DNA of 34,625 bases. It comes from Acidobacteriota bacterium (GTDB lineage: Bacteria; Acidobacteriota; Terriglobia; Versatilivoradales; Versatilivoraceae). The DNA lies in NCBI GenBank assembly GCA_009841055.1, contig VXMN01000146.1, positions 1 through 34,625 on the forward strand, read 5' to 3'. The position numbers and the translations under genes are program-made. Below the pieces are notes generated by a model. It had not been told where the DNA came from, made no database searches, and worked only from the letters and a program-made list of their open reading frames with translations. Shown piece by piece: positions 16,072 to 34,551 of the stretch. Within the stretch, counting starts at the first letter, position 1; every line of letters starts with the position of its first letter.

Positions 16072-17226
16072 TTGACGTCGCTGCCAGCTTTGAAACCCCC
16101 GTTCAACACAACTCGAATCCTGACGGCACTTCTCATTGTGTTTTTTGGCGCGCCGCTGATTTCCCAGGCGGATGCCTATCAGGAGGCATTGGCAAGCTAC
16201 CGGTCCGGAAGTTACCTGGAGGCGCTGGTGGCCGTGCAGAATGCCCTGAGCCAGAATGAAGGCAACGCCTCCTACCACCTGCTGCATGCCAAGGTTCTGG
16301 TGGAGCTGCGCCAGTACGGCGACGCCGAGAAGAGCCTGAAGCGAGCCGGCGAACTGCGTCCCCAATGGGTGGAGCCTCTCTACGAGGCGGGCATACTCCT
16401 GTTCAGGCGCGGAAATTTTCAGGAGGCAGTTACGACGCTGGCCAAGGGAGTCGAACTCGCACCCGATTCCATCAAGACTCGCTTTCTGCTGGGCGTCAGC
16501 TATCTGCAGATCAACCTGGACCATGCGGCCCTGGAGCAGCTCAAGGACGTGGAGGCGGCCGATCCGCGCTACCCCGCGGTTCACCACAGCATCGGAAGGG
16601 TTTACTTTCGGCAGGGCAGGGACGCCGAGGCAATCGAGCACTTCAGAACCGAGTTGGCGCACAACCCCGATCGTCACGCGGCCAGGTTTCTTCTGGGCAA
16701 GGCGCTGGTAAGGACGGGCCAGGCGGAAGCGGCGGTGGTGCAACTGCTGAGGCTTCAGGGAAAAGAGGTGGGCCAGGGGCAACTCCATTACTACCTGGGG
16801 GCGGCCTACCGTCGCCAGGGGAAACGGGCGGAGGCCCTGGAAGCGCTTCAGCAGAGCATCGCTATCAATCCCAACTCCTATGAATCGCGCTACCTGCTGG
16901 CTCGGCTCTATCTGGAAACCGGCCAGCCCGAGTTGGCCCGGAAGCAGATGGCGGCCTTCGAGCAGTTGCGGAACAGAGAAGGGCGTGGGCGGTCGGTCGA
17001 GGGTTTGAAGCGGGAGAGGCAGGACCCGGAATTCAGTGAAGCCGACATTGATGCCGATGGCCAGTTGACGCCGGTCGAATTCGAGCGCTTCGTCAATACG
17101 CGAGTGAAGGGTTTTGCAAGACATGGTGAGTTCTTCCGGGGATTGGACGGCAACGGCGACGGCCTGCTGGACCGCCAGGAATTCTCCCGGCGCTTTGGAG
17201 TTCTGCGAAGTCTTCAGAGTCAATAG
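16072..17226 (+). CDS. TPR-repeat exported protein with C-terminal EF-hand pair
   Basis: 384 aa; TPR repeats, then DIDADGQLTPVEF (17044-17082) and DGNGDGLLDRQEF (17146-17184), both matching the 12-residue EF-hand loop. TTG start; start position uncertain. Confidence 0.85.
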   Translation: MTSLPALKPPFNTTRILTALLIVFFGAPLISQADAYQEALASYRSGSYLEALVAVQNALSQNEGNASYHLLHAKVLVELRQYGDAEKSLKRAGELRPQWVEPLYEAGILLFRRGNFQEAVTTLAKGVELAPDSIKTRFLLGVSYLQINLDHAALEQLKDVEAADPRYPAVHHSIGRVYFRQGRDAEAIEHFRTELAHNPDRHAARFLLGKALVRTGQAEAAVVQLLRLQGKEVGQGQLHYYLGAAYRRQGKRAEALEALQQSIAINPNSYESRYLLARLYLETGQPELARKQMAAFEQLRNREGRGRSVEGLKRERQDPEFSEADIDADGQLTPVEFERFVNTRVKGFARHGEFFRGLDGNGDGLLDRQEFSRRFGVLRSLQSQ

Positions 17227-17287
17227 GAAGCTGGTTGGCGTTGATCCGATTAAAATGGCTTATGGCCCTTGAGGTCCCAACAGGGGG

Positions 17288-19099
17288 GTGCGAGTGAAGC
17301 TTCACCGAGGGCCTCGGCAGCGGCCGGCGGCTGAGAGCCCGGTGCCCTTTCTGTCGGTTCGGGCTGGTTCCGGGCCGACCCCTGAACGCCCGGTCCGTCG
17401 CTCGATCAGGTTCGCAATCGGGTGGCGGGTCCTGCTCGCGGCGCACCTGTTTCAGGTTCCCGCCCTGCCGGAGGCGATACCCCAATTCGTCGACATCACC
17501 GGCTCCAGCAAAATCGCCTTTCGGCACATGAACGGTGCCGAGCGGAACAAGCGCTACCTGTTCGAGCTCAAGGGCGGCGGCGCCGGTTTCTTCGATTTCG
17601 ACAACGATGGCAGGCTGGACCTTTTCATGGTTCAGGGATCCACCCTGGAGAGGTTCCGCAAGGGAGACAACCCCCACGGCACCCTCTATCGAAACCAGGG
17701 AGACGGCACCTTCAAGGACGTGACCCGGAAGTCGGGACTGACCCGCACGGCCTGGGGGATGGGAGTCAGCTTCGGAGACTACGACAACGACGGCTTCGCC
17801 GACGTCTACCTCAACAACCTGGGGACCAACTTCCTCTACCGGAACCGGGGCGACGGGACCTTCGAGGATGTCACGGAGCAAGCCGGCGTGGGCGGATCCG
17901 GGTGGACCGCCTCCTCGGCCTTCGGCGACTACGACGGGGACGGGGACCTGGACCTGTTCGCCTGCAACTACATCCACTACGATTTCGATAACCTGCAGCC
18001 ACCCGATCCCAAGCTGGTCTGCCACTACCGGGGCACCACCATCCCCTGCGGACCGCTGGGACTCCAGGCCGGATCCAACCGGCTCTACCGCAACAACGGC
18101 GACGGCACCTTTGCCGACGTCACCGTGGAGTCCGGATTGGACGAAAACAACCACTTCTATTCTCTGGGCGTGGTGTGGGCCGATCTGGACGGTGACGGAG
18201 ACCAGGATCTCTACCTGGCCAATGACAGCACCCCCAATCAGCTCTATGTCAACCAGGGAAACGGCACCTTCAAGGAAATGGGACTGTTGAGCGGTCTGGC
18301 CACCAGTGCGGCCGGAGACTTCCAGGGCGGCATGGGCGTGGACGCCGCCGACTACGACAATGACGGTCGGCTGGACGTCTTCGTGACCAACTTCGCCCAC
18401 GACTACAGCACGCTCTACCGAAACCGGGGCGGCCTCATGTTCGAGGACGTGACCCAGCAGGCCGGGTTGATTCAACCGGAATGGCTGTTGGTCGGTTGGG
18501 GGACGGGGTTCTATGACCTCGACCATGACGGCTGGAAGGACATCTTCCATTCCAACGGGCACGTGTATCCCTTTATCCTGGACGCCGAATGGTCGGAGAC
18601 CTATTTTCAGCCCTCCTCCATCTATGTCAACCGGCGGGACGGGACCTTCAGGGACGTGAGAAAGATGGCGGGAGACGATCTCCAGAAGCAGCTCCTGGGA
18701 CGGGGGATGGCTTTCGCCGACATCGACAACGACGGCGACATGGACTTCCTCATCGGCAACCTCAACGGGGTCCCCCGGCTCTACAGGCACCAGGGGGCGG
18801 CCCCCAACCATTGGGTGATGTTCCGCGCCAGAGGGGTGCGGAGCAATCGAGACGGCATCGGGGCCCGCATCACCGTGGTCACCCGCCGGCTGCGCCAGGT
18901 CTGGGAGATCAAGCGAACCGTCGGGATCTACTCGGCCAGCGATCCCAGAGCCCATTTCGGGCTGGGAAAGGCCGGCCGGATCGATCGGGTGGAGGTCAAG
19001 TGGCCCAGCGGCGTGGTGCAGGAATTCAAGGACGTGGCCGCCGACCGGCACTACCGAATCGACGAAGCCAAGGGGTTGGAGAGGGAGTTCGATCCGTGA
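17288..19099 (+). CDS. CRTAC1-family protein (FG-GAP/VCBS repeats with ASPIC/UnbV domain)
   Basis: 603 aa; FFDFDNDGRLDLFMVQGSTLERFRKGDNPHGTLYRNQGDGTFKDVT, CHYRGTTIPCGPLGL, C-terminal SNRDGIGARITVVTRRLRQVWEIKRTVGIYSASDPRAHFGLG; GTG start. Confidence 0.92.
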   Translation: MRVKLHRGPRQRPAAESPVPFLSVRAGSGPTPERPVRRSIRFAIGWRVLLAAHLFQVPALPEAIPQFVDITGSSKIAFRHMNGAERNKRYLFELKGGGAGFFDFDNDGRLDLFMVQGSTLERFRKGDNPHGTLYRNQGDGTFKDVTRKSGLTRTAWGMGVSFGDYDNDGFADVYLNNLGTNFLYRNRGDGTFEDVTEQAGVGGSGWTASSAFGDYDGDGDLDLFACNYIHYDFDNLQPPDPKLVCHYRGTTIPCGPLGLQAGSNRLYRNNGDGTFADVTVESGLDENNHFYSLGVVWADLDGDGDQDLYLANDSTPNQLYVNQGNGTFKEMGLLSGLATSAAGDFQGGMGVDAADYDNDGRLDVFVTNFAHDYSTLYRNRGGLMFEDVTQQAGLIQPEWLLVGWGTGFYDLDHDGWKDIFHSNGHVYPFILDAEWSETYFQPSSIYVNRRDGTFRDVRKMAGDDLQKQLLGRGMAFADIDNDGDMDFLIGNLNGVPRLYRHQGAAPNHWVMFRARGVRSNRDGIGARITVVTRRLRQVWEIKRTVGIYSASDPRAHFGLGKAGRIDRVEVKWPSGVVQEFKDVAADRHYRIDEAKGLEREFDP

Positions 19100-22619: not shown

Positions 22620-24944
22620 TTGCTCATTCGTCCCTTGGATTCCCCCCATCTCCTTACTACGCCAACCCCCTTGGTAAACGCTCCGGTTGTGGAGCATCGC
22701 GACGAGCCTGATCGGACAAGGTTGAGCAGCCTTCCCTGTCCCTTCTTGTCCCGAATTCGCTCGGTATTTTCCGGCGGAATTCTCCGTCCATCCCGGTACC
22801 TTCTGCCTCTCTGGTTGCTCTGCGCTCTCCCCATGCAGGCACAGAGGCCGGTCGGCAACCCCCACCAGCCCTCGCTCCGGCCTCAACCCTACCAGCGCGC
22901 CGAAGCCTGCCTGCCCTGTCATCGGAGACAGTATGACGAGTTGCGCAGCTCGGTGAAATCCGGCTATCGAAGCGTCAGCTCGGTGTTCAATGCCCTGGAG
23001 TTGTCAGGAAACTTTCTGAGCGGCGGAAGGCTGAGGCCGGTCTACGGCGACAGCGACAAGGTCACCGCCATCGACGTCACCGGGGTGGCCGGTCAGGGAA
23101 AGCCGCTGAATACCAACATGAACAGCGCCGACACCTTTACCCACATCAACCAGGTTCAGGCGGCTTTTTGCATCGGATGCCACGCCCCTCATATCGTGTT
23201 GATGGGGGAGGATCCCGACCAGAGAGAGATTCCCGAGCTGGAGGAGGTGGGGGGAAAATTTCGTCCGGATCTGATTCGTCCCTTGCGGGACTTCCATTTC
23301 GTGGACAACTCCAATCGGCAGATCCTGCCGGAGGAAATCGGTGGACCGCCTCCTCCGGGGGCCAGGCCTTCCCTGGGCGCCCAGGGGATCAACTGCGATG
23401 TCTGTCATGACATCACCGCCCCTGACCTGGACCGCAGCCCCAACCGCGACGGTCTTGCCAATTCCAGCTTCGAGCTGATCCCGACCATCAGCAAGATCGG
23501 TCCCTTTCTGTTTCCGGCTCCGGTCAAGGACAACTTTCACTTTGCCAGCCGCGACCCCGATCAGATCGGCTATTTGCGGAGTAGCGACTTCTGCGGCAGT
23601 TGTCACGATGTCAGAGTTCCCGGGGACGGATCGGGATCGCTGACCCACCGCGAAATCAGCCTGAACCCCGGGAGTCAAAGCGTCAGTCTCTTCCGCCTCG
23701 AAAATCTGAACACCGAGTGGATGACGGGCCCCTACAACAGCACCCAAAACCCGTTCGGCCGGGTCGTTCGTTGTCAGGACTGCCACATGTCCCTGTTCCC
23801 CTATGGACAGGAAAGCACCTACCAGGTCGGGGAGCTGGAAGTCACCAGTCCCACCCCGGGCCAGTTCCCCGTGAACTTCGCGGCCGTGCCGGGCGTCTCG
23901 ACGGACCTGAACTATCCGCTGCAGCAGCGTCAGGTGGTGACTCACTACATGACCGGGGTGGATGTGCCCATTCTGAGAACCGATGAATTGCGGGCCCGCC
24001 TGGGACAGGACTACCCGGATGTCAACGAGCCGGGAACGGATGAGTACGGGATTCCGCTTTCCCTGGCCCAGCGGCGCGAGGACCTCTTGAAGGCTTCGGT
24101 TCGAATCAACCTGGACAAGTCGGACCGGACGGCCCGACTCGGCCGGCCCCTGATGGTCAGGGTGACGGCCGTCGCCCTGACCGGACACCGATTCCCGGCC
24201 GGATTTTCCCAGGAACGAACGGCCTACATCCAGCTCTCCATCCGGGACAACAAGGGATTTCTCCTCTACCAGTCCGGGTATGTCGTGGACAAGCCCCACC
24301 CGGAGGTGGGCGAGATGGCTCCCGATGGAAATCTGGACGATGAAGATCCCGAGCACCTTCATGCGGTGGTCGACCCCGGGTATCCCGCGGCCGTCTACCG
24401 TGTGGGGCAATTCACCAACGGGCATCGCAATCAGGTGTTTCAGTCGGGTCCGGACAACGGACCCGACGCTCGAATCTTTTTCGGCAGACCCAGCGGCCTG
24501 GTAATGTGGCGCAACGAGTTGACCCGGGTCTTCCTGCCGGGGGAAAGCTTGGGGCGTTTCGACGAGGAGGGCAATCCGATTCGCTTGACCCGACCTCACA
24601 TGGAGGAAACCTTCAGCGCGGTCCTGGCGAACTCTGTCGACAACTATCGCTCGCTGCCCCCGTTGCAGCCCAGGACCTACGCCTATGAGGTGGTGCTTCC
24701 GACCCGGGAGGAGCTGCAACTTCTGGAGGTTGGAGAGCTGGAGTCGCCCTTGCACGTCCACGCTCAGGTTAACTTCCTTCACTTTCCGCCTCTGTTTCTG
24801 CGCTTTATGGCCAGGACCACCAGCGCGGAGGGCCCCGGAGGACGGGATTACCATCTCATCGATGAAAAGCTCATCGACGATTTGCTGGTGAACGTGCGCG
24901 CCATCGCATCGGCCGACTTCACCATCGACCTGGAGGCGCCATGA
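22620..24944 (+). CDS. Exported multiheme c-type cytochrome (5 CxxCH)
   Basis: CLPCH, CIGCH, CDVCH, CGSCH, CQDCH; C-terminal region with TGHRFPAGFSQERTAYIQL. Start uncertain: the signal-like segment ILRPSRYLLPLWLLCALPMQAQ lies ~60 codons in, and TTG at 22746 is a possible start. Confidence 0.88.
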   Translation: MLIRPLDSPHLLTTPTPLVNAPVVEHRDEPDRTRLSSLPCPFLSRIRSVFSGGILRPSRYLLPLWLLCALPMQAQRPVGNPHQPSLRPQPYQRAEACLPCHRRQYDELRSSVKSGYRSVSSVFNALELSGNFLSGGRLRPVYGDSDKVTAIDVTGVAGQGKPLNTNMNSADTFTHINQVQAAFCIGCHAPHIVLMGEDPDQREIPELEEVGGKFRPDLIRPLRDFHFVDNSNRQILPEEIGGPPPPGARPSLGAQGINCDVCHDITAPDLDRSPNRDGLANSSFELIPTISKIGPFLFPAPVKDNFHFASRDPDQIGYLRSSDFCGSCHDVRVPGDGSGSLTHREISLNPGSQSVSLFRLENLNTEWMTGPYNSTQNPFGRVVRCQDCHMSLFPYGQESTYQVGELEVTSPTPGQFPVNFAAVPGVSTDLNYPLQQRQVVTHYMTGVDVPILRTDELRARLGQDYPDVNEPGTDEYGIPLSLAQRREDLLKASVRINLDKSDRTARLGRPLMVRVTAVALTGHRFPAGFSQERTAYIQLSIRDNKGFLLYQSGYVVDKPHPEVGEMAPDGNLDDEDPEHLHAVVDPGYPAAVYRVGQFTNGHRNQVFQSGPDNGPDARIFFGRPSGLVMWRNELTRVFLPGESLGRFDEEGNPIRLTRPHMEETFSAVLANSVDNYRSLPPLQPRTYAYEVVLPTREELQLLEVGELESPLHVHAQVNFLHFPPLFLRFMARTTSAEGPGGRDYHLIDEKLIDDLLVNVRAIASADFTIDLEAP

Positions 24945-25789
24945 TCAGGAGGGAAATGCAGCTCCTGGCTGCGCTGGGATTCCTCATCGTGGCCGTTTCC
25001 CTTTGGATCGGCTACGGAGAAGCCTGGTCGCAGAACGGTCAAGCCGGCGGGCAGAAACGCAACCCCAACTACCTGGATCGGAATCCGTTTTACTTCGAGG
25101 GGAAGGTCGACTACGAGCTGTTGGGCATCGATCAGCCTGTGGACCCGTGGGAGTTCATGCAACGGGGGATCCACCGCCAGGACGATCTGGAGGATCGAGA
25201 AGGAGCCATTCAGGACTACCGCGCCGCCATCGAGCGCAACAACCCGGAAAACGGCACTTGTCAGATTGTGAAGACCCTGCCGTCAACCACCCTGGAGTTT
25301 CAACAGCTCACCCCGGCTCCCTGCCTCTTCACCCCACGCCTCAGACTGGGATATCTCCTGCTCCATGAGGACACCATGCAGGCCATCGAGCTCTTTCGCC
25401 AGGTGACCGACATCGATCCGCAGCGGCTGGAGGTAAACGCGCTCATTGGCGAAGCGTACGAAATACTGGGGGACGAGGCCTCTGATCCCGAGGACAAGGA
25501 AGCCCATTACCTGGAAGCGGTTCGTGCGCTCAATGCCGAGCTGGCCCTTTCACCCGTCACCGAGCTGACCCGCCGCCTGACGGGCGATGAGGCCAACAAT
25601 GCCCATGCCCATTGGAATTTGGCAAGGATTCAGGAGAAGTTGAACAACCATGCGGAGGTGCTGTTCGCGCTCGATCAGTATCTCAAGGCCACCCGTTGGC
25701 ACAGCGATGTGTACCCCTGGAGGATTCTCCTGGCCCAGCGACGCATGGAGCAATTGAGAGCACGGCTAGGTCCGTCGTCGGCCGAATGA
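24941..25789 (+). CDS. TPR-like exported protein, translationally coupled to the 5-heme cytochrome
   Basis: ATGA overlap (24941-24944) with the upstream stop; N-terminal signal MIRREMQLLAALGFLIVAVSLWIGYGEA; TPR-like helices (GYLLLHEDTMQAIELFRQVTDIDPQRLEVNALIGEAYEILGD, AHWNLARIQEKLNNHAEVLFALDQYL). Confidence 0.75.
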   Translation: MIRREMQLLAALGFLIVAVSLWIGYGEAWSQNGQAGGQKRNPNYLDRNPFYFEGKVDYELLGIDQPVDPWEFMQRGIHRQDDLEDREGAIQDYRAAIERNNPENGTCQIVKTLPSTTLEFQQLTPAPCLFTPRLRLGYLLLHEDTMQAIELFRQVTDIDPQRLEVNALIGEAYEILGDEASDPEDKEAHYLEAVRALNAELALSPVTELTRRLTGDEANNAHAHWNLARIQEKLNNHAEVLFALDQYLKATRWHSDVYPWRILLAQRRMEQLRARLGPSSAE

Positions 25790-25972
25790 AGCAGAGTCGG
25801 TGAAGGAAAGGCGAGCCTTTTGCATGGGTTCGGCCGGTGTGAGAAACTGCCCTCCAATCACCCTCCCGGCTTGGCCGGCCGGGCAACCGGCGGGTCATCG
25901 TTCAGGGTGTTGTTCCGGATGCACGATTCGCTGCCGGGCATGGTTGGATCCGTAAAGGTCTGGTGAGCCAAC

Positions 25973-27553
25973 ATGGCGCTCCGTACCCTCACATTGCCTG
26001 CCGCTGTGGTCGGTTTGTGCCTGGTTGCCTACTCCCAATCCTCCCGGGTCACCATCGAAGACGCCTGGAATGACCTGCTGGGCAATCCCGTCTCCAAGGG
26101 GACCGAGAGCCTCCTGGTTTCCCCGGAACCTCCGGAATCCAAGAACGCCGCTCGGGATTTTGCCGATCATTTTTTCTACAACACCCGTTCCGAATACGTT
26201 CACCAGCAGGCCACCTTCAGCGGCCTGCCCACCCTGACCGGCGTCGTCGACCGTGAACCGGGACCGGTGGCCGATCCCACGGCCATTCCGTTTCCCGGAG
26301 CCTTCCAGCCTCACTCCGGCCATTTCTACTCGTCAATGAACTGGGGAACCCGAGGTTGGCTCTCACCGCGAATCAACACCAACTTTTCCCTCCGCTATCG
26401 CCAGGACCTTTCGGCCCTTGACATCGGTTCTCCCGCTCGATCGGTGCTGAATACCTTTTCCCGGAATCGGTTGTTTGAGCTGACCACCGGTGTGGTTGAG
26501 TTGAACGGGCTGACCCGGCAGGGGACTCTTTCCGATTCGACCCTGCGCCTGGGTCGGCAGAACATTTTCGGGGCCGAGATGGCGACGGTGGACGGATTCT
26601 CGTTTGCCCTGGATCGGCCGAAGTACCGGGTAGGCCTTTTCGGAGGACGGCGCTTTACCTATTACTCCAACCCGGGGCAGCGGGCCATCGGCGGCGGAAG
26701 CCTCGGTTTCCGGCTGCCGGGAGGCGGCAGCTTCGAGTATCAGGGCCTGTTCTATGTCAAGGGGATCCACCGGCTGGTTTTTCGCCAGCCATTGGAGCCC
26801 TCCTGGATGGTGGGGGCTCACTACAAATCGGTAGGTTCCAGGCCGGTCGACTTCGGCGCTCAACTGAGTTACCTGCCTGCCGACGGGCTTACGGGAGCAC
26901 GGTTCGCCTTTGCCCAGAAGCTGTCGGAACACGACTTCATCTATGACCATACCTTTTGGGTCAGAGACGGAGATTCCTTCAATCGCCTGAGAAGACTGAA
27001 CTTCGGCGTCATTTCTCCCCACCGTCAGTTTTCTGTCGAGGTCCACCGTCAGATTTTCGAGGCGGCCACGGTGGGGGGAGCCGTGTGGGTGCGCCGCTTG
27101 AACCGGGAAAGCGATGCCGGTCCCTTCGACACCTCGTTCGAGGACTATCGAACCCACCTCAGGCTGTTCCCTCTGCGACGAACAACCGTGCTGGTGGAGC
27201 TTCACCGCCGCCGCACCGATCGCCCCAGCCCTCTTGGAGTCCAGGAATTCGACGACGTGCGCAACGCCGGTGAGACTCGCATACGGGACATCAGTCTTGA
27301 AGTCAGCCGCTCTTTCGGCGAGGATCGGCTGGGGCTCACCGTCGGGGGCTACCATCGAGAGATCGACTTGCAGAATCGATTCTTTTTCATAGACAAAGCC
27401 CGGGTGCTGGGGGCCATCGGCGGGGCCTGGTTTCGGCTGGATCAGCGCACCCGCCTTTACTTTCGTTACGGGCTGGATGAGGACTTCACCATCTTCAGAC
27501 CCAGCCTGCAACGATTCCAAACCTATCGCATGGGATTGGACTGGAGGCTCTGA
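25973..27553 (+). CDS. Predicted outer-membrane beta-barrel protein
   Basis: 526 aa; signal peptide MALRTLTLPAAVVGLCLVAYSQS; alternating aromatic/polar strands (FSLRYRQDLSALDI, YRVGLFGGRRFTYYSNP, TRLYFRYGLDEDF) ending in RFQTYRMGLDWRL. No cysteines or heme motifs. Confidence 0.65.
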   Translation: MALRTLTLPAAVVGLCLVAYSQSSRVTIEDAWNDLLGNPVSKGTESLLVSPEPPESKNAARDFADHFFYNTRSEYVHQQATFSGLPTLTGVVDREPGPVADPTAIPFPGAFQPHSGHFYSSMNWGTRGWLSPRINTNFSLRYRQDLSALDIGSPARSVLNTFSRNRLFELTTGVVELNGLTRQGTLSDSTLRLGRQNIFGAEMATVDGFSFALDRPKYRVGLFGGRRFTYYSNPGQRAIGGGSLGFRLPGGGSFEYQGLFYVKGIHRLVFRQPLEPSWMVGAHYKSVGSRPVDFGAQLSYLPADGLTGARFAFAQKLSEHDFIYDHTFWVRDGDSFNRLRRLNFGVISPHRQFSVEVHRQIFEAATVGGAVWVRRLNRESDAGPFDTSFEDYRTHLRLFPLRRTTVLVELHRRRTDRPSPLGVQEFDDVRNAGETRIRDISLEVSRSFGEDRLGLTVGGYHREIDLQNRFFFIDKARVLGAIGGAWFRLDQRTRLYFRYGLDEDFTIFRPSLQRFQTYRMGLDWRL

Positions 27554-27610
27554 CTGTCCGGAGAAGACAGTGCGGCCGGAATCCCGTCCAGCAAAATAGG
27601 CCGGATACAC

Positions 27611-28933
27611 TTGGAAACGCTTGCATTCATCGCCAGGAGAAAGCGCCGGGCTCGGCTCATCGGTGGGGTGCTGCTGACCGCTGTTGCGGTGGCCTTGGCC
27701 GCCGAACAGCTCGGCGGCAAAGAGCCCGGAGCCCCTCCGGCCGACTACCGCTTGCATGATCACCACGTGGGTCAACTGGGCCTGGAATGCAGGGACTGCC
27801 ATGTGCCGAAGCAACCGGAATCGGTGGTGATGGTCCGTCCGGGCCACGCTCAATGCCTTTCCTGCCACCAGGAGGACTTTCAGGGCCAACCCGGCGTTGG
27901 CCTTTGCCAGGAGTGCCATGCCTCCTTGCAGCCCACGGGTCCGGACGACCTGCGTCCCTATCCCGAGTTCAGCAAGCCGCAGGCACTCCTGTTCCGGTTC
28001 TCCCATGCACAGCACCTGGACAAAGAGGAACGCCTGGACCCGGCTACCGGGTTTCGCGCCGACTGCACCTTTTGCCACAAGTTTGAGGGAGAGGGGGTTT
28101 TCGCCGGGTTTCCGGGTCACACGGAATGCGCCGCCTGCCATTCCAGGCCCAACATTCTGCCCAACCTCACGGCCGGTTCCACCAGCGCCGATTGCAGTCA
28201 GTGCCACGGCACGGCCGAGCGGGACAACCCGGGTTTCAGCAAGGAGCGGCGGCTGACGGGGTCTCAGCAGGCCTCAGGGTCGGCAGTGAACCTGAAGTTT
28301 GCCCATCTGCCCCATCTGCAACCGAATGAGGCCGAGCGCATCGCATGTGTCACCTGCCACTACGAAATTCCCCAGAGTCAGCGCGTGGCCGATCTCAGCC
28401 ATCCGGAAGTCCTGGACTGTGTGGCCTGCCACGACGGACAGCAGGAGTTGGTGTCCCATTTCAGGATGGAGGACTGCCGGGCCTGCCACCTCGAGCCTCG
28501 AGAGGGGGTCCTGCCCGCCAGCCACAGCCGCAGTGTGAAGCCCATGTCTCACAGCGCCGCTTTCCGCAGACACCACCAGGAGGAAGCCTCGGCGGGGAAT
28601 GCCAAGTGCTTCGTTTGCCACACTCATGTTTCCCCGGCCGTTCGCCGGGGAGGGGATTGCGCGTCTTGCCACCAGGTGATGCGACCCCTTTCCCACACGC
28701 CGCGCTGGCGGGATGCCATTCACGGAAAGCACGCGGCCCTGGATCGCCAGGCCTGTGCCGTCTGTCACACGGCCGACACCTGTTCGCGATGCCACAACCA
28801 GGTTCCCAGAAGCCACCTTCCGCTTGGACTGTTCAAGGCCGGGGCCCACGCCGACCTGGCTACCCTGCAGTTGCGCTCCTGCTTTACCTGCCACACCTTC
28901 GAGGAAAGCTGCGCGGCCTGCCACCTGCAGTAA
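27611..28933 (+). CDS. Multiheme c-type cytochrome (15 CxxCH)
   Basis: Fifteen CxxCH counted by eye: CRDCH, CLSCH, CQECH, CTFCH, CAACH, CSQCH, CVTCH, CVACH, CRACH, CFVCH, CASCH, CAVCH, CSRCH, CFTCH, CAACH. N-terminal membrane segment RLIGGVLLTAVAVALAA. Confidence 0.93.
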   Translation: METLAFIARRKRRARLIGGVLLTAVAVALAAEQLGGKEPGAPPADYRLHDHHVGQLGLECRDCHVPKQPESVVMVRPGHAQCLSCHQEDFQGQPGVGLCQECHASLQPTGPDDLRPYPEFSKPQALLFRFSHAQHLDKEERLDPATGFRADCTFCHKFEGEGVFAGFPGHTECAACHSRPNILPNLTAGSTSADCSQCHGTAERDNPGFSKERRLTGSQQASGSAVNLKFAHLPHLQPNEAERIACVTCHYEIPQSQRVADLSHPEVLDCVACHDGQQELVSHFRMEDCRACHLEPREGVLPASHSRSVKPMSHSAAFRRHHQEEASAGNAKCFVCHTHVSPAVRRGGDCASCHQVMRPLSHTPRWRDAIHGKHAALDRQACAVCHTADTCSRCHNQVPRSHLPLGLFKAGAHADLATLQLRSCFTCHTFEESCAACHLQ

Positions 28934-28952: not shown

Positions 28953-30176
28953 ATGAAACGGAGAGAGTTCCTGGCTGCTTCCACCACCGCCCCGGCATTG
29001 CTGTTTGCCCGGACCGGCAAAGGCCGGGAAGCCACCGGGAATCGGGAGGGTTTCTTGAGGGAGCACGGCTTCTGGGACTACACCACCCCCGGGGCCGGAG
29101 GGATGGAGTCTTACCGGCAGGAAGACTACCTTTCCCTGCTCGACGACATGGCCGGGGCGGGCATGAACTCCCTGATGATCTACGTGAAGTGGCTGACCAC
29201 GGGTTACCGGTCCCGCCTCTCGTTTCAGGATCAGTCTCCCGACAACCCCGTCATCGCCTCCGACAACTCTCTATTGCGGCGGACCATCGAGGAGGCGGGC
29301 AAGCGGGGGATCAAGGTCTGGCTGGGCGGGGCCGTGACCTATTTCGACACCTCCAGGTTTCGAGCCGAACCCTACCGAACCTACACCCGGTTGAGCGGGT
29401 TCGATCTGCCGGTCGAGGTAGGGTTGTACGACACGGACACTCCCGGCATCACCGAGAGCATCGTGCAGATCTATGAGGAACTGGTGGAGCTGTTCCCGGG
29501 CGCCGGCGGCCTGGAAGTGGAGCTTGAAGGAGCAGGAGTCGAGAACCCCCACCGAATCCCGCTTTACGATCGATGGGCCAGGGAGAACGGGCGACCGCCC
29601 TTTGCGGAACTGGGCCACCCGTTCAATCCCCGGTCTTTCGATGTACCCGACTGGCGGGACTACACCACCGATTCCCGCCTGAAGGTGCTCCGGGCTGTGG
29701 AAAAGGCCGTGCGGGCCAAGGGTTTCGGGGGGGACCTGTCGACGATCTGCGAAACGGGCTCGAGTCCTTATGCTTTGGGTCAGGCCGTCAACCTGAAGCA
29801 GTTCCACCGGCGCTTTCCCCAGTGGATCGCCACCACCTACGAGTACGACAAGTGGAACCACCGCTACGGCATGATGGACCTCTGCATCGATCACCCCAAG
29901 CAGGAAGGGCTCCCGGTGTTTTATCTGCCCCGAGGCGTCATGACCTGGGGAAGCCGGTGGCCTCTGCCAATCCCTCTCGAGCGTAGTTGGCGGATGGACC
30001 TGGAAGACATTCGAAGATTCAAGCCCCACGGAGTGTGGTGGTTCGGAAGCGGGGGGCGCAACGAAGGCGCCCACGTGAGCCTCGCCCGCCTGCGCAAGTC
30101 CGGCTACACCAGCGGCGAAGATGCGCGACGAGCCTTGTTAAGGGTGGCTTCCGAGCTTCGGGAGCTTCAGGTCTGA
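28953..30176 (+). CDS. Tat-exported putative glycosyl-hydrolase-like TIM-barrel protein
   Basis: ATG 28953: MKRREFLAASTTAPALLFA (twin-arginine); GMNSLMIYVKWLTTGY, GIKVWLGGAVTYFDTSRFR, GGLEVELEGAGVENPHR, WIATTYEYDKWNHRYG. The ORF track extends upstream to 28713 across the cytochrome gene; that part is out-of-frame overlap. Confidence 0.6.
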   Translation: MKRREFLAASTTAPALLFARTGKGREATGNREGFLREHGFWDYTTPGAGGMESYRQEDYLSLLDDMAGAGMNSLMIYVKWLTTGYRSRLSFQDQSPDNPVIASDNSLLRRTIEEAGKRGIKVWLGGAVTYFDTSRFRAEPYRTYTRLSGFDLPVEVGLYDTDTPGITESIVQIYEELVELFPGAGGLEVELEGAGVENPHRIPLYDRWARENGRPPFAELGHPFNPRSFDVPDWRDYTTDSRLKVLRAVEKAVRAKGFGGDLSTICETGSSPYALGQAVNLKQFHRRFPQWIATTYEYDKWNHRYGMMDLCIDHPKQEGLPVFYLPRGVMTWGSRWPLPIPLERSWRMDLEDIRRFKPHGVWWFGSGGRNEGAHVSLARLRKSGYTSGEDARRALLRVASELRELQV

Positions 30177-30894: not shown

Positions 30895-32733
30895 ATGGTA
30901 GTCATTCTTCTAGCGCTGACGCTGCTGTCCCTGCTGGGGCCGACAACGGTCCTGGGCCGGGATGCCCCGGTGCGGGAACAGGGTCGGCCGGTGCAGGTCC
31001 TGGACTACGGATACGTCTCATCCGAGGAATGCCGCAGCTGCCATCCGCAGAACCACGCCAGTTGGCATGCCTCCTACCATCGGACCATGACCCAGGTCGC
31101 GACCCCGGAAGCTCTGGCTATTCCCATCGACCAGGTGCAGTTGAAGCTGGAGGGCCAGACCTACCATTTAAAGAGGGAAGGGGATCGGATATGGGCGGAT
31201 ATGCCCCACCCGTCCATGGGGCGTATCAAGAGGCGCATCGTCCTGACCACGGGGTCGCACCATTTCCAGATGTACTGGTTTTCCAGCGGCTCGACGCGCA
31301 AGCTGGAGCTGTTTCCCTTTGTATACGCCATCCAGGAGGGCCGCTGGATTCCCGAGAAGTCCACCTTCCTCATGCCGCCGTCACCCAGTATTTCCACTCA
31401 GCCCGGGCGCTGGAACCAGGCTTGCCTGCAGTGCCACACCACTTTGGGACGACCCCGGGTCGCGACTCAGGACAACATGGACACCCAGGTGGCGGAGTTC
31501 GGCATTGCCTGCGAAGCCTGCCACGGTCCGGGGGGGCGGCATGTGCAGGTCATGAGCCGGCCGGGCAGCCTGGAAGCCTATCGCAGCGGCAAACTCGAGC
31601 TGAGTATCGTCAATCCCGCCAAGCTGCCCCACGACCGTTCCTCCCAGGTCTGCGGACAGTGCCACAGCGTCTTTACCTTCGGTGACCAGCAGGAACTGGT
31701 CCAGTGGTTGAACCACGGCTTTTCCTACCGGCCGGGACAGGATCTGAACGACAGCCGCTTCCTGATCCGCTTTCACCAGAGTCGGGGCGCTCCCCAGATG
31801 GAAGCCTATCTGAAAGCTCAGCCAAGGTTCCTGGAGTCGGTCTTCTGGTCGGACGGAATGGTTCGGACGGCCGGAAGAGAGTACAGCGGGCTTCTGGAGT
31901 CGGGGTGTTACCAGGTGGGTCAGATGTCCTGCCTGTCCTGCCACCGCCTGCACAAGGCGCCGGAGGATCCCCGGCCCCTGAAGTCCTGGGCCAACGACCA
32001 GTTGCAACCGCGGATGGATACCAATCTGGCTTGTCTGCAGTGCCACCCTGATTTCGAGTCCAGCCTGGAGGAGCACACCCATCACCGGCCGGGCTCTCCC
32101 GGAAGCGAATGCTACAACTGCCACATGTCTCACACCTCCTACGCCCTGCTGAAGTCCATTCGCAGCCATCAAATCAGCAGCCCCACGGTGGCTGCCAGCC
32201 TGGATACGGGCCGGCCCAACGCCTGCAACCAGTGCCACCTGGACAAGACCCTGGCCTGGACGGCCGAGAACCTTCAGAAGTGGTACGGGGTGCCCAAGCC
32301 CAAGCTGTCCAGGGAACAAGAGACCATCGCCGCCTCGGTGCTCTGGACCTTGAAGGGGGATGCCGGCCAGCGGGCGCTCATGGCCTGGAGCCTGGGGTGG
32401 GAACCGGCCAGGGCCGCCTCCGGTTCGGGCTGGATGGCGCCCTATCTGGCCCAGTTGCTGGAGGATCCTTACGACGCCGTGAGGTTCATCGCCTACCGCT
32501 CGCTCCGGCGACTGCCCGGTTTCAGCGACTTCCGGTACGACTACGTGGACTCTCCGCAGCAGCGGGCCCGGGCTCGTCTCGAGGCCCTGGAGATCTGGCG
32601 CCGAGCCGGCCGGCAAGATCGGACCGCAAACGGGTCTGCCGTCCTGTTCGATGGCCGCGGCAACCTCCGGCAACAGGCCTTCGATCGCCTGCTGAGCCAG
32701 CGTAACGACTATCCCCTGGGCCTGGCCGAGTAA
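30895..32733 (+). CDS. Exported multiheme c-type cytochrome (8 CxxCH)
   Basis: CRSCH, CLQCH, CEACH, CGQCH, CLSCH, CLQCH, CYNCH, CNQCH; signal peptide MVVILLALTLLSLLGPTTVLG; C-terminal helical repeat-like region (APYLAQLLEDPYDAVRFIAYRSLRRLPG). Confidence 0.92.
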   Translation: MVVILLALTLLSLLGPTTVLGRDAPVREQGRPVQVLDYGYVSSEECRSCHPQNHASWHASYHRTMTQVATPEALAIPIDQVQLKLEGQTYHLKREGDRIWADMPHPSMGRIKRRIVLTTGSHHFQMYWFSSGSTRKLELFPFVYAIQEGRWIPEKSTFLMPPSPSISTQPGRWNQACLQCHTTLGRPRVATQDNMDTQVAEFGIACEACHGPGGRHVQVMSRPGSLEAYRSGKLELSIVNPAKLPHDRSSQVCGQCHSVFTFGDQQELVQWLNHGFSYRPGQDLNDSRFLIRFHQSRGAPQMEAYLKAQPRFLESVFWSDGMVRTAGREYSGLLESGCYQVGQMSCLSCHRLHKAPEDPRPLKSWANDQLQPRMDTNLACLQCHPDFESSLEEHTHHRPGSPGSECYNCHMSHTSYALLKSIRSHQISSPTVAASLDTGRPNACNQCHLDKTLAWTAENLQKWYGVPKPKLSREQETIAASVLWTLKGDAGQRALMAWSLGWEPARAASGSGWMAPYLAQLLEDPYDAVRFIAYRSLRRLPGFSDFRYDYVDSPQQRARARLEALEIWRRAGRQDRTANGSAVLFDGRGNLRQQAFDRLLSQRNDYPLGLAE

Positions 32734-32806
32734 GAGTTACCGGCCTGCCCCCCAGCCATACAGCCCGCCGCGAACCCCGGTCGAAGGGCCGGAATTGCGA
32801 GGCTTC

Positions 32807-33724
32807 ATGATCAAACGGATCCTGGCTCCAAGGCATGTCGCGGTTCTGGTGGTGCTGTGGATCGCCCCGGCGGTTCTGGCCCAGTCGGAGGACTATCGCA
32901 AGGCGCTGGCCAGCTATGGGGACAAGCGTTACCTGGAGGCCCTGGTCTGGATTCAGCAAGCAGTGGCCACGGAGCATGACAAGGCGGCCTACTACCTGCT
33001 TCAAGGCGAGATCTACAGCGCCCTGCGTCAGTTCAGCGACGCCGAGGCCTCGTTGCGCCGGGCGGTTGAGTTGCAGCCGGATCTGGCCAGGGCTCACTTC
33101 CAACTGGCGGTTCTTTTCCTGCGGGACAACAAGTACCGCCAGGCAGCGACCGCTCTGGAGCAGGTTTCGGTCGTCGAGCCCGGCGATTTGAGAGCCCGTC
33201 TCCTGCTGGGCAATGTCTACTGCCTTCAACTCAATCTCGACAGCCTGGCCTTGCAGCAGTTTACGGCGGTAGCAGAGGCCGATCCCCGATACCCCGCCGT
33301 ACAATTCGGATTTGGGAGACTCCTTTTCAGGCAGGGCAGGGACGGTGAGGCCGTCGAGCGATTCCGATCGGAGTTGGAGTCTCAACCGGAACATGCGGAA
33401 GCCCGTTTTCACCTGGCCAAGGCCCTGCTGAGGATGGGCCGCACCGAGAAGGTTCTCGGCCATTTGCAGGCGCTGCTGGGCAAAGAGGTGGACCAGGCGG
33501 AACTTCACTTCTTCCTGGCCAAGACCTACCACCGCCTGGAACAACCGGCCAAGGCCATTGAAGCCTTGCTGGAGGGGATCGACCTCAAACCCGACTTCCC
33601 GGACGCGCACTACCTGCTGGCCCGGCTCTACCTGGAAACGGGGCGCCCCCGGCAGGCTCGGGATCAGATGGATCGATTCGAAGCGATGCGCGACCGGGAG
33701 GGTCGCGGCCGGCTGAGGCCATGA
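32807..33724 (+). CDS. TPR-repeat exported protein (paralog of the 16072..17226 product)
   Basis: MIKRILAPRHVAVLVVLWIAPAVLAQSEDYRKALASYGDKRYLEALVWIQQAV...; shares AEADPRYPAV, RLLFRQGRDGEAVERFRSEL, YLLARLYLETGRPRQARDQMDRFEAMRDREGRGR with the other copy; lacks the EF-hand tail. Confidence 0.88.
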   Translation: MIKRILAPRHVAVLVVLWIAPAVLAQSEDYRKALASYGDKRYLEALVWIQQAVATEHDKAAYYLLQGEIYSALRQFSDAEASLRRAVELQPDLARAHFQLAVLFLRDNKYRQAATALEQVSVVEPGDLRARLLLGNVYCLQLNLDSLALQQFTAVAEADPRYPAVQFGFGRLLFRQGRDGEAVERFRSELESQPEHAEARFHLAKALLRMGRTEKVLGHLQALLGKEVDQAELHFFLAKTYHRLEQPAKAIEALLEGIDLKPDFPDAHYLLARLYLETGRPRQARDQMDRFEAMRDREGRGRLRP

Positions 33725-34551
33725 GCATGGATTGCAAAGCCGTATGGATTTGGCTTGGCTTTTGTCTGGTGCTTGCGGACGGTGGGTCTCTTCGAGCCGA
33801 CTCGGTGCCCCGGTTCACCAACATCAGCAGCTCCAGCGGCATCGACTTCCTCCATATCAACGGTCCCGAGAACACCAAGCCCTACCTGTTCGAGGCCAAG
33901 GGCGGCGGGGCCGGCTTCTTCGATTACGACAACGATGGCTGGCTGGATCTGATCATGGTTCAGGGGTCCACCCTGGAACGATTCCGCAAGGGAGACAACC
34001 CGCACGGGGCGCTCTATCGGAACCAGGGGGACGGAACCTTCAAGGAGGTGACCCGGGAGGCGGGTCTGACCCGATCTGCCTGGGGGATGGGAGTCACCCT
34101 GGGAGACTACGACAACGATGGCCATGTTGACGTCTACTTGAACAACTTGCAGACCAACATTCTATACAGGAACCGGGGAGACGGAACCTTCGAGGACGTC
34201 ACCGCCCGGGCCGGCGTGGGAGACTCCGGGTTGAGCTCCTCTTCCGCCTTTGGCGACTACGACCTGGACGGGGACCTGGACCTCTACGTCTGCAACTATG
34301 TTCGCTACAATTTCGACAGTCTGCCGCCTCCCGGCTCCAAGCCCATCTGCAACTACCGGGGAGCTCCGGCCTTTTGCGGTCCAAAGGGGCTGGAAGGGTC
34401 GGCCAATCGCTTCTACCGCAACAACGGAGACGGAACCTTCTCGGACGTCACCGAGGCAGCCGGGTTGAACGTGAAGAACCACTATTACTCCCTGGGGGTG
34501 GTTTGGGCCGATCTGGACAGCGACGGGGATCCGGACCTCTACGTGCCCTGA
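33721..34551 (+). pseudogene. CRTAC1-family (FG-GAP/VCBS) protein, truncated by a stop at 34549-34551 (probable contig-end sequence error)
   Basis: ATGA overlap with upstream TPR gene; FFDYDNDGWLDLIMVQGSTLERFRKGDNPHGALYRNQGDGTFKEVT, CNYRGAPAFCGPKGL; reading DLYVP*DSTPTQLYDNQ versus paralog DLYLANDSTPNQLYVNQ; homology stops ~40 nt before the window end. Confidence 0.75.

Follow-up and report, generated by a model that had tools for sequence, protein, structure and literature searches.

A conserved four-gene cluster of Acidobacteriota that probably encodes a divergent porin-cytochrome conduit with a TPR protein

Do four consecutive genes on a 34,625-nucleotide stretch of Acidobacteriota DNA (contig VXMN01000146.1 of assembly GCA_009841055.1, here called the window) encode a route for electrons across the outer membrane? 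An initial annotation had described an exported protein with five CxxCH motifs, an ATGA-coupled tetratricopeptide repeat (TPR) protein, a barrel of 526 amino acids and a protein with 15 CxxCH motifs in a row on one strand, and had read them as a conduit-like system with a TPR subunit. Open reading frame coordinates and motif counts agree with this layout. We abbreviate the 5-CxxCH protein as c5 and the 15-CxxCH protein as c15, and number loci (L) and genomes (G). In our assessment the four genes are likely to encode a divergent porin-cytochrome conduit, in which c15 would lie in the barrel and c5, with the TPR protein, would be the terminal or docking cytochrome. A predicted barrel, a conserved gene order, a c7-type wire and a pentaheme of the ExtKL/PHC superfamily support this reading.

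All four genes lie on the forward (+) strand. The c5 gene (22620–24944), for an exported pentaheme c-type cytochrome of 774 amino acids, overlaps the TPR gene (24941–25789; 282 amino acids, Sec-type N-terminus, Pfam TPR matches) by four bases, ATGA, i.e., the TPR protein is translationally coupled to c5. The predicted outer-membrane β-barrel (25973–27553; 526 amino acids) and the c7-type c15 (27611–28933; 440 amino acids) follow. Both cytochrome frames open at TTG, and their real start positions are uncertain. When the proteins were shuffled (5000 trials each), the maximum number of CxxCH motifs was three for c15 and one for c5. GC content by codon position is similar across the four genes. 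The TPR and barrel genes are separated by 183 bp in the window; elsewhere they lie up to 95 bp apart or overlap by as much as 64 bp. A structured RNA or attenuator within the 183 bp was considered and rejected (fold z-score -0.5).

The complete c5-TPR-barrel-c15 order was found in nine independent loci, all with exactly 5 + 15 hemes and all genes on the same strand; here the window's genus is taken once, and loci come from a c5-alignment scan and further genome searches. Two more loci are interrupted by contig ends within c15, and the module also occurs in other members of the window's genus, including G005. Across module loci, minimum pairwise identities are 52% for c5, 43% for the TPR protein, 36% for the barrel and 44% for c15, and the pairwise identities of the four proteins covary (Spearman 0.64–0.90). 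The flanking genes vary between loci. The TPR gene is a constant companion of c5 in complete loci, and its product has a conserved NPxYxxRNPFYFEGR motif. Conservation of the order in related genomes hence reaches far beyond the genus, and its recurrence with exact heme counts, unlike flanks and correlated identities supports the conduit reading.

AlphaFold2, run on a 13-row alignment, predicts the product of the third gene as a barrel of 22 strands (pLDDT 68, pTM 0.61), as the initial annotation had proposed. The barrel matched no Pfam or NCBIfam family, and a sequence search of solved structures with its profile gave nothing useful. Since Foldseek with the model returned generic barrels, i.e., porins and ushers at 7–10% identity, the fold class is supported without a specific family. 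Membership in the MtrB/PioB family was rejected: PF11854 found no match among 13 barrels or in the window's genome, and hhalign of the barrel against a control set of nine Acidobacteriota MtrB proteins gave 1.4%. What had earlier been judged by eye, i.e., that the barrel does not resemble MtrB, is thus confirmed by profile.

c15 has a Sec-type N-terminus (by eye) and a heme density of 25 residues per heme. Pfam and NCBIfam searches gave c7-type and MtrC/MtrF-domain matches, and its only matches among solved structures were c7-type proteins and subunit A of alternative complex III. The MtrA/DmsE decaheme model TIGR03508 did not match c15, which carries 15 hemes rather than ten, in line with the earlier remark that the heme counts do not fit the MtrA layout. 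An 11-row alignment contains the 15 motif histidines and exactly 15 other invariant histidines. Because there are 15 invariant candidate distal histidines for 15 hemes, we read c15 as a putative pure electron wire. On the simplest reading of the alignment, each heme would have its own distal ligand, and c15 would conduct through bis-His hemes throughout. All 20 hemes of MtrCAB are bis-His (PMC7198977).

Searching with the barrel profile in 50 genomes with c5-like genes yielded two remote matches, both in metagenome-assembled genomes (MAGs) of Deltaproteobacteria (L133, L134). At both loci the barrel gene is directly followed by a gene for a 12-heme protein and then by genes for 1-heme and 7-heme proteins. 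The barrels are homologous to that of the module (hhalign 98.1%), and so are the multiheme proteins (99.8%), the 12-heme protein aligning with hemes 4–15 of c15. The two loci differ from the module in that they have no TPR gene and no c5, and in that the 12-heme protein lacks the first three hemes and has a lipobox-like N-terminus. In a third distant genome, G749, the gene after a weaker barrel homolog encodes a protein with 14 hemes that matches c15; the c5 and TPR genes of this genome stand on a different contig. As barrel and multiheme protein occur in distant genomes without c5 and TPR beside them, barrel plus wire and c5 plus TPR act as two sub-modules that are united in Acidobacteriota. 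Since c7-type cytochromes resemble one another generally, we put the weight of evidence on barrel homology and adjacency. The barrel is unrelated to MtrB by profile, but the system is not without kin.

NapC/NirT-type tetraheme genes adjoin the module in L034, L036 and L119, and another adjoins the barrel-c15 part in L123, where the contig starts within the barrel gene and the c15-type protein has 11 hemes; these tetrahemes are orthologous, with mutual identities of 50–56%. In L127, a 32–36% tetraheme homolog adjoins a divergent barrel. Two NapC/NirT genes are present in the window's genome, both away from the module. The tetraheme neighbours fit a CymA-like quinol dehydrogenase that would supply the conduit, with expression and pairing presumed. 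The adjoining tetraheme orthologs and the pairing of remote barrels with multiheme proteins both support a conduit. At L127 (261–4912), which belongs to another class of the phylum, the divergent barrel is preceded by genes for the tetraheme and for an NDH-2-like oxidoreductase that carries a cyclic-nucleotide-binding domain. In the window's genome, paralogous pairs of NapC/NirT tetraheme and octaheme genes (L129 and L130, on contigs 122 and 369) are 69% and 81–83% identical, and are possibly further respiratory modules.

The pentaheme c5 has its CxxCH motifs at residues 97, 184, 259, 325 and 385 and a heme-free C-terminal region of about 350 amino acids, in part predicted as β-strands. Pfam and NCBIfam searches gave cytochrome matches below threshold only, and a solved-structure sequence search with the c5 profile gave nothing useful. 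All 13 c5 orthologs match the NCBIfam model ExtKL (NF040886) weakly (best E 2.4e-5). The window c5 scores 13.4 bits against a cut-off of 250 bits, which places it outside the family proper. Among free-standing pentahemes, ten that match c5 reach scores of 1e-8 to 1e-20 with the same model. Five CxxCH motifs and a GHxxPxG motif are common features of the superfamily. Judged by sequence, c5 is a member of the ExtKL/PHC pentaheme superfamily, with kinship at superfamily level only; that its relatives match ExtKL, a conduit-linked family, supports the conduit reading.

Identity of c5 with NrfA or octaheme enzymes was rejected (no CxxCK, family matches below cut-off), as was identity of c5 or c15 with nitrite, hydroxylamine or tetrathionate reductases (no CxxCK, no match over cut-off). 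Both cytochromes accordingly lie outside these enzymatic families, c15 as a c7-type wire and c5 within its pentaheme superfamily.

Two further observations concern c5 relatives. In Planctomycetota (L042, 6991–10691; also L041 and L044), a c5-superfamily pentaheme gene stands directly after a multicopper oxidase gene, and the two genes overlap in L042 and L044. The module-bearing genome G012 has, at a second site (L026, 7396–8217), a heme-free open reading frame that resembles the c5 C-terminal region, perhaps a decayed c5 copy or an independent use of this domain.

How does the module compare with known conduits? The general definition in PMC6148476 comprises an integral barrel, a periplasmic multiheme cytochrome and an outer-membrane redox lipoprotein. 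The module encodes a barrel with its cytochromes (22 predicted strands, conserved cluster) and, in c15, a predicted periplasmic cytochrome able to span the membrane (15 CxxCH, 15 distal histidine candidates). As to the lipoprotein, c5 is an exported multiheme protein; the window copy lacks a lipobox, and the L034 ortholog has the pattern LAGC. PMC4245776 accepts conduit systems without an outer cytochrome, in which 12–14 heme Pcc cytochromes are known; it gives 18–22 strands or segments for Pcc porins and, as listed in 2014, 5–14 hemes for Pcc periplasmic cytochromes. The 22-strand barrel lies within this range, whereas the 15 hemes of c15 exceed the list.

The Geobacter Ext clusters (extEFG, extHIJKL, extABCD) also combine a small barrel (18–21 segments) and a pentaheme, with a dodecaheme in extEFG and extABCD, and c5 belongs to the ExtKL superfamily. 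In contrast to the module, no TPR component appears in the description consulted; moreover, c15 has 15 hemes and c5 scores far below the ExtKL cut-off, the barrels being compared by description. With MtrCAB, MtoAB and PioAB the module shares the putative all-bis-His wire logic and a likely NapC/CymA-like tetraheme donor. Its total of 20 hemes equals that of MtrCAB (5 + 15 versus 10 + 10), which may be coincidence. The module barrel, however, is unrelated by profile and has 22 instead of 26 strands, the wire has 15 hemes instead of ten, and a pentaheme stands in place of MtrC. In OmbB-OmaB-OmcB, PCC3, PCC4 and the Verrucomicrobia porin-MHC systems, too, a barrel and a periplasmic multiheme cytochrome are encoded together, and the size of the module barrel is in the Pcc range. 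Their partners differ, and no TPR protein is mentioned in the accessible parts of the sources (PMC4245776, PMC5566968, PMC5615132), which give heme counts of 8 + 12 for OmbB-OmaB-OmcB, a median of 21 + 34 for PCC3 and 8 for Verrucomicrobia porin-MHC, and no outer cytochrome for PCC4. The window's module also has no gene for a PCC3/PCC4-type inner-membrane protein. The comparison suggests a variant of the porin-cytochrome conduit with an unfamiliar barrel and an extra TPR protein, distinct from the MtrB, MtrA and ExtKL families. The four-gene cluster was not found described in the open-licence literature.

Beyond the computed gene order, heme counts, ligand pattern, barrel prediction and remote paired homologs, we infer the assembly of c15 within the barrel, the sidedness of c5, the role of the TPR protein and the tetraheme partner. 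c15, as a rod of 15 bis-His hemes, would sit within the 22-strand barrel and reach into the periplasm, where its partner in electron exchange would be a tetraheme quinol dehydrogenase of the NapC/NirT type in the inner membrane. The TPR protein would hold the ExtKL/PHC-type pentaheme c5, which as terminal or docking cytochrome would donate electrons to an external partner or accept them from it. For c5, we consider the cell surface somewhat more likely than the periplasm.

Several points weigh against this conduit model. The confidence of the barrel model is moderate and no complex structure was predictable; the c5 AlphaFold model is poor (pLDDT 39) and inadequate for a fold search. Because the lipobox is absent from the window c5 and was matched among module orthologs in L034 only, the surface position of c5 is putative. 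As superfamily pentahemes also occur alone, without barrel or c15, c5-type proteins are evidently used outside conduits as well. Finally, the support is genomic, as every named record with the module is a MAG, "Ca. Versatilivorator" included.

Doubt about sidedness leads to a possible alternative that we hold to be clearly less than even: a periplasmic c5 would link the inner-membrane tetraheme and c15, with the TPR protein as periplasmic scaffold and c15 alone at the surface. ExtKL is predicted to be periplasmic (PMC6148476), a further point against the conduit model as we prefer it; the missing lipobox of most c5 orthologs and the Pcc cytochromes of 12–14 hemes that work without an outer cytochrome (PMC4245776) point the same way. 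However, an N-terminal cysteine close to the signal-peptide end is seen in several relatives of c5 and, within the module clade, in L034 and L040, and c15, exceeding its remote partners by three hemes, might need no intermediate. Another arrangement, tentative and on balance rather unlikely, would make barrel and c15 just a cable, with c5 as catalytic terminal oxidoreductase acting on a specific soluble substrate at a five-coordinate heme. Shewanella DmsEF, which serves an extracellular DMSO reductase, provides an analogy. ExtKL-like pentahemes with an immunoglobulin-like domain form the PHC family, which was described from cable bacteria and placed among potentially catalytic cytochromes with pentacoordinate heme (PMC11976967). 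The superfamily conserves about three candidate distal histidines (307, 442, 523) for five hemes, and the Planctomycetota relative stands directly beside a multicopper oxidase. c5 may therefore be catalytic and not purely conductive; yet within the module clade six non-motif histidines are invariant in c5, sufficient for five distal ligands, and neither CxxCK nor an over-cut-off reductase match was found.

That barrel and TPR protein serve to export or assemble cytochromes, e.g., at the surface or into filaments, instead of sheathing a wire, appears improbable to us. PHC-type pentahemes are structurally linked to nanowire-forming cytochromes (PMC11976967), and the best Foldseek matches include ushers besides porins, but these matches are generic, and distant genomes pair the barrel directly with a multiheme wire and not with c5. 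The many unrelated TPR and FG-GAP genes in the window flanks might suggest a chance neighbourhood of unrelated genes. With order and heme counts kept at 36–57% identity, between different flanks and in several families, this explanation is refuted for all practical purposes.

Within Acidobacteriota the module is rare and patchy, since the barrel turned up in just 12 of the 399 genomes sampled from the class, which represent 6 of 136 genera and belong to six families; in the phylum it turned up in 3 of 396 sampled genomes. G001, a single-contig genome of the window's genus, which is probably sponge-associated, is without the barrel. MtrB/PioB-type barrels are much commoner in the phylum (90/392 genomes). 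L030 (VXPS01000256.1) carries a full module and is binned as Chloroflexi, but was rejected as proof of inter-phylum transfer, its contig of 11 kb being too short to rule out mis-binning. A mobile origin was likewise rejected, as no plasmid or viral relatives of c5 were found.

Directly after c15, at about 28953–30176, the window encodes a protein whose N-terminus looks Tat-like (MKRREF) and which matches GHL6 (hypothetical glycosyl hydrolase) below threshold. Next comes an octaheme cytochrome (30895–32733) that weakly resembles the DmsE/GSU2203 decahemes; after it stand a TPR gene (32795) and, at 33721, a gene of FG-GAP/VCBS type. The GHL6-like and octaheme genes were rejected as module parts; they are kept in the genus and absent beside the module elsewhere. 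Paralogous pairs of TPR and FG-GAP repeat genes flank the cluster on both sides (16072–19099 and 32795–34551), their TPR proteins being about 46% identical. Upstream of c5, L037 and L038 encode a NuoEF-like protein on the strand opposite to the module; L038 further encodes on that strand a c7 protein with 10 hemes, a ferredoxin-like protein that carries cyclic-nucleotide-binding domains, and what may be a membrane protein.

A bolder version, in which the wire of an undescribed conduit type, with 15 hemes and inside a barrel of a new family, feeds a catalytic surface pentaheme via a TPR-organised docking unit, seems doubtful to us. If true, otherwise unremarkable soil, lake and probably sponge-associated Acidobacteriota would gain an outer-membrane respiratory or oxidative enzyme. 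The module is a sequence-distinct conduit candidate that MtrB-based searches would miss, in lineages for which the literature searched gives no such description. Its strict 5 + 15 hemes, paired remote homologs and constant TPR protein make it a testable case of a phyla-wide barrel-wire core that may recruit different terminal cytochromes.

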